64,000 nucleotides of DNA from Candidatus Thioglobus sp. GTDB taxonomy: Bacteria; Pseudomonadota; Gammaproteobacteria; Arenicellales; UBA868. The stretch covers positions 1 to 64,000 of the forward strand of contig SHBR01000005.1 in the NCBI GenBank assembly GCA_004212795.1. Direction: 5' to 3'. Below the pieces are notes generated by a model, which did no database searches, was not told the origin of the DNA, and saw only the letters and a list, made by a program, of their open reading frames with translations. This document shows, piece after piece, positions 7,212 to 44,794 of the stretch (position 1 is the first letter of the stretch; the number at the start of each line of letters is the position of its first letter). The translations under genes were made by a program, and so were the position numbers.

Positions 7212-8111
7212 ATGCACATCACAGTTCGCCAACTGCAGGTTTTTGAGGCGGTCGCCCGTCGTCTGAGTTATACACGAGCCGCTGAGGAGCTTCATCTGAC
7301 TCAGCCGGCCGTGTCAATGCAGATCAAGCAGTTAGAGGGGTCTGTCGGAATGCCGTTATTTGAGCAAATGGGAAAAAAAATTTATCTCACACAGGCCGGA
7401 ACGGCCATGCTCTCCCATTCCCGAAATATTATGCAAAATCTCGCTGCCGCTGCGGAAGAGATGAATGATCTCCGAGGGGCTGACTCAGGTCGACTTCGAA
7501 TATCGATTGCATCAACGGTCAATTATTTCGCTACCCAGTTACTCGCCGTTTTTGCCCGTGAACACCCCTCGGTAGAGATCATATTAGATGTGACCAATCG
7601 TGAGTCACTTCTCAACAGACTCGAGGCTAATGTCCCAGACCTAGTGTTAATGGGTAAGCCGCCTGCGGACATGGATTTGGTGTCAGAGCCGTTCATGGAT
7701 AATCCGTTGGTGATGATCGCCGCCACTGATCATCCGTTGGCAAGCCGGAAAAAGATCCCAATCCATGATCTCGCGAATACTGGATTCCTTGTCCGGGAGT
7801 CGGGCTCAGGCACTCGAGCTGCAATGGAGCGATTTTTTGTCGAGCACGATTTTTCTTATAAGAAAGGGATGGAGTTGATGGGGAACGAAGCGGTAAAGCA
7901 GGGGGTCGAGGCCGGATTGGGTCTTGCCCTTGTTTCTATACACACCGTGGAGCAAGAACTCGTGTTGAATCGCTTGGTGAAGCTTGATATTGAGGGGCTA
8001 CCGATCATGAGGCGCTGGTATGTAGCGCATCGCCGAGGGAAACGTCTGTCAGCGACAGCCCAGGCTTTTCGTGAATTTGTTTTGGAGGCTGGCATGAAGG
8101 CATCCACTTAA
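7212..8111 (+). CDS. LysR-family transcriptional regulator (CbbR-like by context)
   Basis: N-terminal wHTH ITVRQLQVFEAVARRLSYTRAAEELHLTQPAVSMQIKQLE; divergent from prk. Confidence 0.9.
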   Translation: MHITVRQLQVFEAVARRLSYTRAAEELHLTQPAVSMQIKQLEGSVGMPLFEQMGKKIYLTQAGTAMLSHSRNIMQNLAAAAEEMNDLRGADSGRLRISIASTVNYFATQLLAVFAREHPSVEIILDVTNRESLLNRLEANVPDLVLMGKPPADMDLVSEPFMDNPLVMIAATDHPLASRKKIPIHDLANTGFLVRESGSGTRAAMERFFVEHDFSYKKGMELMGNEAVKQGVEAGLGLALVSIHTVEQELVLNRLVKLDIEGLPIMRRWYVAHRRGKRLSATAQAFREFVLEAGMKAST

Positions 8112-39793: not shown

Positions 39794-40927
39794 ATGGAAG
39801 ACTGGTCGGTTATTTATAGAGTTTCCTTGCTCGGTTTTTTGGGCGCTATGATTTTTGGGGCAGTCGCGAGCAAAACCCATTTTTGTACCATGGGCTCGGT
39901 TAGTGACTGGATCAATATGGGATCAAAAGTTCGTTTTCGGGCTTGGGTGTTGGCTATGGGGATCGCAATTCTCGGGGCGCAAGCGATGATGCAAATGGGC
40001 CTGATTGATCTCAACGAAACAATCTATCGGGGTCCAAGCTTTGGGTGGGCTGGATTTTTAATAGGCGGCATTCTTTTCGGGATCGGGATGACTCTGGGCG
40101 GAGGTTGTGGTCAACGCACGCTCGTTCGCGTTGGCGGAGGCAATCTTAAATCTCTGGTTGTTCTAATTGTGATGGCAATTACGGCTTATGCAACGCTAAG
40201 GGGGATATTGGCGCCAGTGCGTATTGATGTGTTTGGGTCATTGGCAGTTGATCTTGCAATGCACGATATCAATGATCAGGGGATAGATACATTAATCACA
40301 CACTTGACCGGCCTTTCTTTGCAGATGGCTTCAGTAGCTGTAGCTGCGACTCTCGGTGTTGGCGCAATTATCTATGCGATTAAAGATGAAAGTTTCCGGC
40401 GAAGTTCCGACAATATTCTGGCGGGACTGACGATCGGGATTCTCGTGTGCGGGGCTTGGTACGTTACGGGTGTAATCGGCAATGATGATTTTGAGCCGGT
40501 ACCGCTTGAGGCCGTAACATTTATTGCCCCGTCCGCGAACTTTTTGAATTACATCATGACCTGGACCGGATCCGAGATCGGTTTTGGAATCGCTGTTGTC
40601 TTCGGAATGATTGCAGGTTCATTCATATACGCAGTTTTGACAGGAAATTTTCGAGTAGAAAGTTTCATCGCTGGGGGTGATATGCGAAATCACCTTGTTG
40701 GCGGTGTTTTGATGGGTTTTGGTGGCGTGCTTTCATTTGGCTGTACGATTGGCCAAGGGGTTTCCGGGATATCGACTTTGGCGCTGGGCTCGTTTTTGAC
40801 GCTGATCTCGATCATGCTTGGATCGGCGCTGACGATGAAAACGCAGTACTACATGCTGGATGATGGATTCTGGGTTTCTTTGCGGCAATCTTTAGTGGAC
40901 TTGAAACTTTGGCCTCAAAATTCTTAA
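39794..40927 (+). CDS. YeeE/YedE family membrane protein (sulfur compound transporter)
   Basis: GAVASKTHFCTMGSVSDWI; GMTLGGGCGQRTLVRVGGGN; LSFGCTIGQGVSG. Confidence 0.88.
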   Translation: MEDWSVIYRVSLLGFLGAMIFGAVASKTHFCTMGSVSDWINMGSKVRFRAWVLAMGIAILGAQAMMQMGLIDLNETIYRGPSFGWAGFLIGGILFGIGMTLGGGCGQRTLVRVGGGNLKSLVVLIVMAITAYATLRGILAPVRIDVFGSLAVDLAMHDINDQGIDTLITHLTGLSLQMASVAVAATLGVGAIIYAIKDESFRRSSDNILAGLTIGILVCGAWYVTGVIGNDDFEPVPLEAVTFIAPSANFLNYIMTWTGSEIGFGIAVVFGMIAGSFIYAVLTGNFRVESFIAGGDMRNHLVGGVLMGFGGVLSFGCTIGQGVSGISTLALGSFLTLISIMLGSALTMKTQYYMLDDGFWVSLRQSLVDLKLWPQNS

Positions 40928-41001: not shown

Positions 41002-41077
41002 GGGGCGTTAGCTCAGTTGGTAGAGCATCTGACTTTTAATCAGGTGGTCGCAGGTTCGATCCCTGCACGCCCCACCA
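41002..41077 (+). tRNA. tRNA-Lys (UUU anticodon)
   Basis: GGGGCGTTAGCTCAGTTGGTAGAGCATCTGACTTTTAATCAGGTGGTCGCAGGTTCGATCCCTGCACGCCCCACCA; complete cloverleaf with encoded CCA. Confidence 0.96.
41026..41077 (+). repeat. Left copy (att-like) of 52-bp direct repeat, 3' part of tRNA-Lys
   Basis: catctgacttttaatcaggtggtcgcaggttcgatccctgcacgccccacca, identical at 42613-42664. Confidence 0.95.
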
Positions 41078-41228
41078 AATTTCAAACACTTACAGGTGTT
41101 TTGAAAATGACTGTGCGCCATTCAATAGCGGTTTCTCGTTTTTTGGGTTAATTTAGAGACCTATGAAGAAAATTCTGAAATACTCCTAAGTTCTTCCTTG
41201 TCGGCAAGTTGATTTAATAATTTCATCC

Positions 41229-42224
41229 ATGCGTAAGAATATGATTAGTCGATTAACTAAAAGTGTTTTCAGTTCAGCGCCGCCGAGATTGCAGAAATGG
41301 ATGCTGAATCGATTTATCTACCGCAAAACAATCGAAAGAAAAAAGATTTCCCCGGGCCAGACCCCATTGTTCGATACCGTATTCTTTGAGGTGCGCACTA
41401 GGTGTAATGGCCACTGCAAATTTTGCTTGGCATCAGTGGGCACCGACCCTCGTAACGATATAAGCATGTCTTATGAATTGTTTGATAAGGTTCTTATCGA
41501 TTTGGCTGACTTAGGTTTCGAAGGGCGGATTGCGTTCCATAATAATAGCGAGCCACTTCTCTTTAAACAGTTGCCGGACTTTGTGGCCCGAGCGAAAGAA
41601 TGTCTCCCAAGGTGCTACATTCAGATTCTCACCAACGGTCGCGCGCTTACTTTGTCGCGAACGGAGCAATTGCTAAAAGCCGGGGTAGATCAAATATCGG
41701 TTAACGTTTATCGAAGGAACGAACGGGAGTCAATCCCACGAGTATTACATGACATTCGATCTAAACTCCTGGAACCCGCGTTTGAGGAGAATCAACTCGA
41801 AGTCTTAGGCCTTGGGCGTGAGCAATCTCCCGATAAACCAAAGTTTAGTTTTGTTGTTTCTCAGCGGTTGGAAAATGAACTTCTCGACAGTCGAGCAGGC
41901 ACGGCGCCAAACAAGCCTCAGCCAGCGCCGTTAGAAAGAGGATTTTGCCAGTATCCATTCACACAATTTATTGTATCGGCAGATGGTCAGGTTGCTGGTT
42001 GTTGTAATGATGTTTTATTTGAGCTGCCGATGGGGAATATGAAGAACTCCACGGTTTCGGAAATTTGGTTCGGGAAAGAATTTTCCAAATTAAGAGGGGA
42101 TCTTCTGGCAGGTGATCGAAGTGGTGTAAGAACCTGTCGCCAGTGTGATTTTATTGGCGTAAAAAAGGCGCCTGGTAGCGTTATATCTAAACTCGTGTTT
42201 GCTGGTCTAAGAGACCGCGGTTAA
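41229..42224 (+). CDS. Radical SAM protein with SPASM-like C-terminal domain
   Basis: FFEVRTRCNGHCKFCLASV (CxxxCxxC); C-terminal Cys cluster GQVAGCCNDVLFELPMGN...CRQCDF. Confidence 0.88.
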   Translation: MRKNMISRLTKSVFSSAPPRLQKWMLNRFIYRKTIERKKISPGQTPLFDTVFFEVRTRCNGHCKFCLASVGTDPRNDISMSYELFDKVLIDLADLGFEGRIAFHNNSEPLLFKQLPDFVARAKECLPRCYIQILTNGRALTLSRTEQLLKAGVDQISVNVYRRNERESIPRVLHDIRSKLLEPAFEENQLEVLGLGREQSPDKPKFSFVVSQRLENELLDSRAGTAPNKPQPAPLERGFCQYPFTQFIVSADGQVAGCCNDVLFELPMGNMKNSTVSEIWFGKEFSKLRGDLLAGDRSGVRTCRQCDFIGVKKAPGSVISKLVFAGLRDRG

Positions 42225-42237
42225 ACCCAGATCGTAG

Positions 42238-42522
42238 CCAGGTATAGCTGGAGGGAGCAGTCCCTCGCAAGATATACCAGCAAAAAAGATAAGTACCTTC
42301 AGGCTTCCAAATTCTGCTTCTCAACATCTATTAAGCAAATTCGTCCGTCGGGAAAGTTGGAGAAAAGATAGGCGTAGGAACCTTAATGGCTCCCAAGATG
42401 AGTTGGAGACTGCATCAAAAACGTTAGGCCATGCATCTACCGCAACCACCAAGAAGTTCTACCGCAGTAATGTCACCAACGTCACTCCAATAATCCGCCA
42501 AATAAATCCAAAGAACTCCTGA
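42238..42522 (+). pseudogene. Remnant of tyrosine recombinase/integrase (C-terminal part)
   Basis: Open frame without start codon: ...RRRNLNGSQDELETASKTLGHASTATTKKFYRSNVTNVTPIIRQINPKNS*; LGHAS...TT..FY resembles the catalytic His/Tyr region of phage-type integrases. Confidence 0.65.
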
Positions 42523-42612
42523 GACTCGGGAGAAAGTTGCTGTAAACTTCCAGAAGTTTGGCAAAGCGTATTTGTATTCGCTCTTTAATAATAGAGTTAT
42601 GGTGAGTTAGGC

Positions 42613-42664
42613 CATCTGACTTTTAATCAGGTGGTCGCAGGTTCGATCCCTGCACGCCCCACCA
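42613..42664 (+). repeat. Right copy (att-like) of 52-bp direct repeat = 3' part of tRNA-Lys, not a full tRNA
   Basis: Exact match to 41026-41077; no 5' acceptor strand upstream. Confidence 0.95.
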
Positions 42665-42781
42665 TTTTCTGAAAAGAAAAGTGGCCTTTTTGTCTTTTCA
42701 AAAATTGCGCTCCCTGTTGAGAAGACATTGTCATTCCTATAGCGTTTTAGCTCTCATTTACCCACTTGGATAAATCGTTTT

Positions 42782-43159
42782 TTGAATGATTCACAAGCAA
42801 TGTCTGATGCCTCCGATTCATTGAGTTCGCTTCTTTTAGATCATTCAGATCCGATCGAGGCAGTGAGCGCGGGTGTTATCGCACACATGAATGAGGATCA
42901 TTCTGATGCGAATCTTGACTATGCCCATGGCCTTGGTGCCTGTCCAGAGGCCACATCAGCGATACTCCTTAAGATTAATCGGTTGGGGATTGTTCTGCAG
43001 GCAACGACTTCGGATGAAGTCAAAACGATTCCCGTTAAATTTCCAGAGCCGCTGGAATCGCAGGATCAAATACGACCCGCGTTGATCAATCTTCTGACCG
43101 AGGCGCGAAAGTCTCTCAAATCGATAAATCGATTCTCCAATCAGGAAACATCAGCATGA
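42782..43159 (+). CDS. DUF2470 (HugZ-like C-terminal) domain protein
   Basis: IAHMNEDHSDANLDYAHGLG ... GIVLQATTSDEVKTIPVKFPEPLES. Confidence 0.8.
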   Translation: MNDSQAMSDASDSLSSLLLDHSDPIEAVSAGVIAHMNEDHSDANLDYAHGLGACPEATSAILLKINRLGIVLQATTSDEVKTIPVKFPEPLESQDQIRPALINLLTEARKSLKSINRFSNQETSA

Positions 43160-44043
43160 ATGATATGGTGCGCGAATGTGCAGACGTGAATCATGAGTTG
43201 ATTGATCGTCCGATAGATCGGATTCTGGACGGCCAACCCACGTCGGACGGGGCGGGCGTTCGCCTGACCCGATATATTGGATCGCAATTGCTGTCCGAGC
43301 TTGATCCATTTTTGTTGCTCGATTTTTTTGAGTCGGATAATCCGGATGACTACATCGCGGGCTTTCCGTCCCACCCGCATCGTGGATTTGAAACCGTAAC
43401 TTACCTCCTTGCGGGGAAGATGCGTCATGGTGATAGTGCCGGTCATAGTGGCGTAATTGAAGCAGGCGGTATTCAGTGGATGACGGCGGGGCGTGGCATT
43501 ATTCACTCAGAAATGCCGGAGCAGGAAAACGGTCGATTGGCCGGGTTTCAGCTTTGGGTGAATTTGCCTTCGCAAAAGAAACTCTGCGAGCCGGCGTATC
43601 ATGAGTATCACAAAGAAGAGATTCCCGTTGAAAGCCGGTTATCGGGCGCCGAAGTCCGTGTGATTGCCGGTATGACTTCAGAAGGAACGAAAGGGCCTGT
43701 CAGCGATGTTGTCACGAGTCCGTTATATCTTGATATTGATCTTCCTGCGAATACGGGTTTTGAGGAGGCGACGCCACAGGGGCATAGTTGTTTTGTGTTT
43801 GTGATCGATGGGGCGCTGGAAGTTTTGGATTGCGATAGTCGTGAGACTGTGGGCGCTCGCCAGCTCGCGGTTTTCGGTGTTGGTAGCCGGGTCCGTATGA
43901 ATGCGGGAGCGACCGGGGCCAGACTCCTGCTTGTTTGCGCTCAAGCTTTACATGAGCCGGTTGCCCGCTACGGACCTTTTGTGATGAATACCCGGGAAGA
44001 GATAGAGCAAGCGGTCGAAGATTTCAATTCTGGTCAATTCTAG
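43156..44043 (+). CDS. Pirin family protein
   Basis: FPSHPHRGFETVTYLLAGKMRHGDSAGHSGVIEAGGIQWMTAGRGIIHSEMP. Confidence 0.95.
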   Translation: MNDMVRECADVNHELIDRPIDRILDGQPTSDGAGVRLTRYIGSQLLSELDPFLLLDFFESDNPDDYIAGFPSHPHRGFETVTYLLAGKMRHGDSAGHSGVIEAGGIQWMTAGRGIIHSEMPEQENGRLAGFQLWVNLPSQKKLCEPAYHEYHKEEIPVESRLSGAEVRVIAGMTSEGTKGPVSDVVTSPLYLDIDLPANTGFEEATPQGHSCFVFVIDGALEVLDCDSRETVGARQLAVFGVGSRVRMNAGATGARLLLVCAQALHEPVARYGPFVMNTREEIEQAVEDFNSGQF

Positions 44044-44077: not shown

Positions 44078-44794
44078 ATGATTACCAATCCACGTGCTGT
44101 TGATCGAATCGCTATTCGCGATTCACTCGGTTATCCGGCGATCACGTTGTTAGCGAGCATGATTGGTTTCGGGTCTCTTGTTAACGAAAGCGGCCTTCCG
44201 CTTGGTATGGCAATTGCTGCCACCCTTGGAATATGGGGATTGCCCGGGCAACTAACCTTAATAGAGATGCATGCTGCAGGTGCTTCTGCTTTTTTTGTGA
44301 TTCTTGGTGTTGCGCTTGCAAATGCGCGATTCTTGCCGATGGCCGTCTCATTTATGCCTTTAATGCCAAGTCGCCGCGCAGGAATGGCTTCGGATTTTGT
44401 ATTGGTTCAAATGCTTTCGATTAACTCGTGGGCTGCAGGTTTAAAACGCTTTCCAGAGATTGCGCTTGAACTTAGGCGACGCTATTACGTTGTGTTTGGC
44501 ACAATTTGTATGAGCGCCGGCTTGATAGGCACGATCATCGGCTATCTTGGTGTTGAAATGATGCCAAGAGAGATTGCGCTTGGTCTTATTTTTATGAATC
44601 CGCTTTTTTTCGCCATCCTCTTGGCGGGCGTAAATAATCGTCCCTCGCTCATTGCGCTGCTGATCGGCGCGCCTCTCGGACTATTTTTTCATTTAGTGGT
44701 GCCTGATTTCGATCTTCTGTTAACCGGAATTATCGGGGGTAGCCTCGCGTTCTGGATAGGCCAGCGTTGGCCGCAACGGGACAATTCACCATGA
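44078..44794 (+). CDS. AzlC family permease
   Basis: AIAATLGIWGLPGQLTLIEMHAAGASAFFVILGVALANARFLPMAVSFMP. Confidence 0.85.
   Translation: MITNPRAVDRIAIRDSLGYPAITLLASMIGFGSLVNESGLPLGMAIAATLGIWGLPGQLTLIEMHAAGASAFFVILGVALANARFLPMAVSFMPLMPSRRAGMASDFVLVQMLSINSWAAGLKRFPEIALELRRRYYVVFGTICMSAGLIGTIIGYLGVEMMPREIALGLIFMNPLFFAILLAGVNNRPSLIALLIGAPLGLFFHLVVPDFDLLLTGIIGGSLAFWIGQRWPQRDNSP

Follow-up and report, generated by a model that had tools for sequence, protein, structure and literature searches.

Islands of the kind collected by Islander are bounded by an intact tRNA gene and a displaced 3' fragment of that gene, and an integrase gene is required inside (PMC4383910). In the additive islands of marine bacteria, a conserved tRNA gene gathers different cassettes, and repeated copies of its 3' end mark them (PMC4119200, PMC10872708). 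In an Alteromonas island, the 3'-terminal 52 nt of tRNA-Leu occur as a direct repeat (PMC4119200), and in fGI-2 of the Methylophilaceae a tRNA-Lys with recurring 20-bp repeats marks the additive island (PMC10872708). CIMEs are by definition decayed ICEs or IMEs (PMC5704250). Tycheposons, according to the second-hand accounts in PMC10872708 and PMC11389934, span 4-200 kb and have a tyrosine recombinase. Islands in tRNA genes are usually catalogued by the integrase that they contain and, consequently, cassettes without an integrase are missed.

The stretch of DNA analyzed here, referred to as the window, comprises 64,000 nt (positions 1-64,000 of contig SHBR01000005.1, assembly GCA_004212795.1, Candidatus Thioglobus sp.) and belongs to a 2.0-Mb draft genome of 82 contigs (G000). 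Relatives were represented by one genome per species, with 33 genomes in the family and 109 in the order; among them is the congener G009, the metagenome-assembled genome TMED61. The segment at 41078-42664 is very probably a small element that was inserted into tRNA-Lys through site-specific recombination by a tyrosine recombinase and is now non-autonomous. Relatives have the same ends around other genes, sometimes in rows, and the element is thus one of a family of small cassettes that target tRNA genes.

The repeated tRNA-Lys end and the enclosed segment

A repeat finder reported a long direct-repeat pair at 41021-41077 and 42608-42664 (57 nt, 96%, spacing 1587 bp), inside which 41026-41077 and 42613-42664 are identical at all 52 positions (Table 1). 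Besides this tRNA-Lys pair, no further repeat of at least 21 nt was reported in the surrounding 6 kb. Within the whole G000 genome, the 3' part of tRNA-Lys is present at 100% at only two sites, the next best match reaching at most 85%, and chance is excluded for an exact 52-mer repeat. The intact tRNA gene and the displaced 3' fragment, both in the same orientation, bound the two ends of the island, which has a G+C content of 0.442 (window mean 0.488, sd 0.018). ARAGORN calls the gene at 41002-41077 as the sole tRNA-Lys(ttt) and leaves the second copy uncalled. Although the tRNA 5' half is missing from it, this copy is still tRNA-like in Rfam (42601-42661, 41.6 bits vs 76.2 bits for the intact gene). 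The sequence-only reading had stated that the last 52 nt of tRNA-Lys recur at 42613-42664 minus the 5' half and that a radical SAM gene lies between the copies. Both statements hold: the identity is complete, and the gene is an intact 331-aa frame with PF04055 and PF13186.

Table 1. Features of the tRNA-Lys locus in the window
Feature	Position	Strand	Evidence or remark
Left flank, YeeE/YedE-type sulphur transport gene	39794-40927	+	PF04143; adjoins tRNA-Lys in many congeners
tRNA-Lys(UUU), intact; proposed target gene, regenerated at the left junction	41002-41077	+	ARAGORN; Rfam RF00005, 76.2 bits
Putative attL core, 3' 52 nt of the tRNA, starting just ahead of the anticodon stem and reaching CCA	41026-41077	+	52/52 identity with 42613-42664
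Left arm with inverted repeat TTTCAAACAC...GTGTTTTGAAA at 41080-41106; proposed integrase-binding arm	41078-41136	+	58 bp align at 81% with the sequence that follows the second tRNA copy of G009
Cargo, radical SAM / SPASM-twitch protein, 331 aa	41229-42224	+	PF04055 (3e-10), PF13186 (2.6e-12)
Tyrosine recombinase C-terminal remnant, ~47 codons to stop, LGH motif and catalytic tyrosine	42376-42522	+	70% aa identity over residues 51-111 of the G009 tail; 63% identity to the G031 integrase
Right arm, integrase stop codon to tRNA fragment, ~90 bp	42523-42612	+	Together with the tail 87.3% identical to G009
Putative attR core, displaced 3' fragment of tRNA-Lys	42613-42664	+	52/52 identity with 41026-41077
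Weak hairpin and T run on the chromosomal side, possibly former tRNA terminator	42665-42701	+	Fold; element arm absent here
Right flank, DUF2470 gene	42782-43159	+	PF10615
Right flank, pirin	43156-44043	+	Followed by AzlC (44078-44794); pair conserved in congeners

The radical SAM frame is the one intact ORF of the segment. The nearest solved structure to its product is BtrN (E = 4.9e-24), and the SPASM/twitch C-terminus seems to favour the role of a BtrN-like dehydrogenase over that of a viperin. No orthologue was found among 60 relatives, and 369 genomes sampled from the class yielded one weak partial match. In the collections searched (relatives, viral contigs and the class sample) neither an origin of the gene nor a close homologue was found. 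The protein also weakly resembles viperin-type models (PADLOC pVip, 5.8e-10).

Integrase tail and element arms

The region at about 42376-42522 encodes ...GSQDELETASKTLGHASTATTKKFYRSNVTNVTPI...stop, and a full-length integrase of this family would be expected to end in ...SQDELEIASERLGHASTATTKKFYRSNVT.... When queried alone, the window tail matched no Pfam or NCBIfam family. The homologous frame in the relative G031, by contrast, falls into PF00589 (2.6e-10) and matches a PHROG integrase (1.3e-20). Since the tail is homologous to this tyrosine recombinase, the name of recombinase remnant, given to it from the letters alone, is correct; the remnant is the C-terminus of the enzyme, with little or nothing kept upstream. 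Only the ~47 last integrase codons are left, hence the element would be unable to excise alone, and we infer that it is immobile at present.

Integrase homologues were found in ten relatives. All 18 integrase matches of the family reach the C-terminal end. The longest two frames measure 258 and 302 aa; both are 5'-truncated, and that of G031 is frameshifted as well. The truncation points vary from unit to unit, stop codons lie inside several tails, and the window tail is gapped in alignment to G009 and G031. The 33 family genomes yielded no intact integrase of this type, and the genome contig collection and viral contigs contained neither an intact integrase nor a complete element. An N-terminal integrase query likewise found no further member of the family. 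The order-level search (109 genomes) revealed only integrase cousins of ~30-42% identity; several are full length, and several adjoin intact tRNA genes (tRNA-Met, -Phe or -Lys). In the cousins L141, L142, L144 and L146 the integrase 3' end points at the 3' end of the intact tRNA (Met, Phe or Lys), whereas in the window family the tail lies on the far side, ahead of the displaced fragment. A 349-aa frame in G001, detected by the N-terminal query, was rejected as a family member, being a different integrase that adjoins tRNA-Pro. Locus L155 of this genome (G001:C122, 1159-2313) holds an intact 325-aa tyrosine integrase, which starts ~100 bp downstream of tRNA-Pro(cgg), and is a different tRNA-targeting element within the same genus. 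The segment had no DNA match in phage and plasmid collections; one integrase match of 36% was found in a prophage record.

The inverted repeat TTTCAAACACTTACAGGTGTTTTGAAA sits directly 3' of CCA. By inspection, about ten relatives have versions of the left arm behind tRNA-Lys or behind fragments of it, and the pattern of tRNA end plus arm was found at 10 sites in 7 genomes, versus none with the reversed control. In the window, the left arm is absent behind the second copy, as expected because that side is chromosomal. Between G000 and G009, the right end (tail and arm) differs at 30 of the 236 bases compared (87.3% identity), whereas identity between these two species is only 64.9-69.0% for yeeE, pirin and a part of azlC (third positions 37-43%; Fisher p = 1.5e-11 for the difference between right end and core genes). 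It is unexpected that a dead tail and a non-coding arm change more slowly than core genes unless they serve as DNA sites. The simplest reading is that the element ends were probably exchanged between the G000 and G009 lineages after the species split, and the arms may act as integrase-binding sites.

Units in relatives and the unoccupied site

In eight units from five genomes, the integrase tail ends 104-122 bp ahead of a tRNA fragment. One such unit each is located at tRNA-Lys in G000, G009, G031 and G024, three lie in a row at tRNA-Arg-type fragments in G028, and one lies at a tRNA-Thr-type fragment in G009, the Arg and Thr identities being read from the anticodon loops. The same search gave no significant match to integrase tails downstream of fragments, and other tRNA fragments in relatives had no detectable integrase tail.

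The tRNA-Lys site holds differing cassettes in G000, G009, G004 and G011, a comparison made between species, not strains. The G009 locus consists of tRNA-Lys, an FkbM methyltransferase, a second ORF that is methyltransferase-like in appearance with no Pfam match, an integrase tail of ~111 aa and a tRNA fragment. Downstream of this fragment, a 9.8-kb stretch of chemotaxis-type genes is closed by a third tRNA copy. The chemotaxis-type cluster (L051, G009:C54, 2481-12290) thus lies between two tRNA-Lys fragments within the array, and the assembly contains ambiguous bases near its right end. In G004 a GNAT acetyltransferase lies between two fragments; the cargo of G011 is a HalD-like protein, and that of G028 includes a PLP enzyme, an isochorismatase, a hydrolase, an amidase and a dehydrogenase. 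Units of ~1.1-3.5 kb with different cargo recur among relatives, and tandem arrays at tRNA fragments were observed in G009 and G028. The array of G028 (L089, G028:C3:218000-233921, minus strand, fragments at 7571, 10316 and 13757) is a row of three ~3-kb units that differ in metabolic cargo, with a tail ahead of each tRNA-Arg-type fragment; its longest integrase frame (302 aa) has a foreign N-terminus fused on. In the order-level relative G037, an interval of 16.5 kb extends from tRNA-Lys to a fragment.

Two versions of the tRNA-Lys acceptor stem were seen, GGGGCG/CGCCCC in G000, G009 and G002 and GGGCCG/CGGCCC in G004, G006, G007, G008, G011 and G015. The fragments of G000 and G009 carry the version of their host, and exchange of the element may be limited by acceptor-stem compatibility. 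Four contigs (G014:C74, G016:C47, G009:C25 and G022:C74) stop at or just past the tRNA-Lys 3' end, which is expected if a repeat or population variation breaks assembly there.

In the congener G015, tRNA-Lys is directly followed by YaiI-RhlE-2OG-AguB-pirin-AzlC with no fragment, and parts of this block are common to several congeners. G015 is the unoccupied site of another species, not the exact empty site joining 41077 to 42665; neither that junction nor an excised circular form was seen. In G000, DUF2470 precedes pirin, versus YaiI-RhlE-2OG-AguB-pirin in G015 and others. The history of the tRNA-Lys locus is therefore more complex than a single insertion. The flank on the DUF2470 side had no DNA-level match in any relative, and DUF2470 homologues elsewhere reach only 42-46%. 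The sequence-only reading had pointed to this locus in relatives as the place to find an empty site and larger elements with the same att and integrase. The comparison gave the unoccupied site of G015 and the same ends around other cargo, but no complete element or intact integrase of this family. The hairpin after the second copy, suggested at that time as the possible displaced original tRNA terminator, does lie on the side lacking the element arm that follows most other copies; however, the fold of 42660-42705 is weak (-9.1 kcal/mol, z = -1.64) and a terminator scan did not list it. It might conceivably be that terminator.

Origin of the element and comparison with known systems

The repeat, the integrase homology of the tail, the finding of both ends around different cargo in congeners and the fragment-free tRNA-Lys of G015 support the proposal of an integrative element between attL and attR. 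A segment carried by all relatives, with no integrase homology, would have spoken against it; a radical SAM orthologue was found in 0 of 60 relatives and integrase homologues in ten. In the proposed mechanism, a tyrosine recombinase would have recombined attP of the element with the 3' half of tRNA-Lys(UUU), restoring the full tRNA at the left junction, with a displaced 3' fragment remaining at the right. The element arms would be the inverted repeat behind CCA and the stretch of ~90 bp that separates the integrase stop from the fragment, and the radical SAM gene would be the cargo still present. Excision or transfer would require an integrase in trans, or accretion beside a complete element in a CIME-like manner.

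It is highly improbable that the tRNA 3' end was duplicated by chance or together with a segment, with no integrative element involved. Partial tRNA copies can arise in this way, and the second copy still scores as a tRNA in Rfam (41.6 bits), but the identity stops exactly at CCA, an integrase tail lies beside the copy and the same layout is seen at fragments of the tRNA-Arg and tRNA-Thr types. The integrase tail and this recurrence at other tRNA genes led us to reject a segmental duplication that involves no element. We also consider it unlikely that the segment is what remained of a large prophage or ICE after internal deletion of nearly everything but both ends and one gene. The PHROG matches relate the integrase to phage-type integrases, and the 36% match to a prophage integrase and the 16.5-kb interval in G037 point the same way. 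However, the segment has no phage structural or conjugation genes, phage and plasmid collections gave no DNA match and viral contigs no match at all, and large elements decaying independently would be less likely to give the recurring units of ~1.1-3.5 kb with varied cargo.

A further explanation agrees with insertion by a tyrosine recombinase on how the element arrived and differs on its present state. The cassettes would be a mobile, non-autonomous family rather than fossils, their arms and integrase 3' end being kept for an integrase acting in trans, and cargo would be swapped between constant ends, comparable to the use of a helper enzyme by MITEs or CALINs. We regard this as doubtful. Equally tentative is an integron-free cassette system, in which a rare full-length integrase acts in trans on units composed of left-arm inverted repeat, exchangeable metabolic cargo, integrase 3' tail, right arm and tRNA 3' fragment, so that these move and accumulate in rows at tRNA-Lys, -Arg and -Thr; the tail would then be retained as part of the recombination site, not as a dead gene. 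The constant tail-fragment geometry at three tRNA types and the ends that are closer between species than core genes favour mobility, which may predate the loss of the integrase. The two att cores in the window are still identical, 18 of 18 matches retain the integrase C-terminal end, and the N-terminal query found no other member, all of which fits a mobile family. However, the C-terminus is the more conserved part of integrases, so that detection is biased towards tails, and this counts against such a family. The differing truncation points, the stop codons in several tails and the gaps of the window tail against G009 and G031 favour decay, and no helper integrase was found in genome contigs, viral contigs or the 33 family genomes. 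The conserved arms and integrase tails provide a signature for listing such cassettes in this uncultured marine family, and with it the question of whether small metabolic genes spread via a helper integrase or were stranded after decay becomes testable.

Regarded as a non-autonomous insertion in tRNA-Lys, the window element is like a CIME (PMC5704250) in that attL and attR in a tRNA gene are kept while its own integration and transfer genes are lost, the radical SAM gene being the sole intact ORF beside the integrase tail, and in that relatives show tandem accretion at the same tRNA. No intact parent ICE or IME was found in genome and viral contigs, the 33 family genomes or phage and plasmid collections. 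The window element measures only 1.6 kb and has no conjugation gene. It may be called CIME-like, with putative descent from an ICE or IME. The layout of its ends is that of Islander islands (PMC4383910), and its repeat, which starts just before the anticodon stem and covers the anticodon arm, would fit the anticodon-centred class; however, only the ~47-codon tail of an integrase lies inside and hence it is not a putatively active island. It shares with tycheposons, as far as the second-hand descriptions go, the occurrence in marine bacteria, the tRNA boundaries, the tyrosine recombinase and metabolic cargo, but those accounts describe larger elements, whereas this one measures 1.6 kb and has no complete recombinase. 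Phage-derived packaging, replication or regulatory genes, as in phage satellites, are absent from the segment, which contains the radical SAM gene and the integrase tail only. Like the additive islands, the locus combines one tRNA, different cassettes and repeats of the tRNA 3' end, the Alteromonas repeat also being 52 nt long. It differs from the additive islands cited in its single- or few-gene units, constant ends and integrase tail and in belonging to another lineage. The window element is an ordinary, very compact case of the known additive, tRNA-anchored island cassettes; less expected is that cassettes tagged by an integrase tail and sharing constant ends form a family found at more than one tRNA gene.
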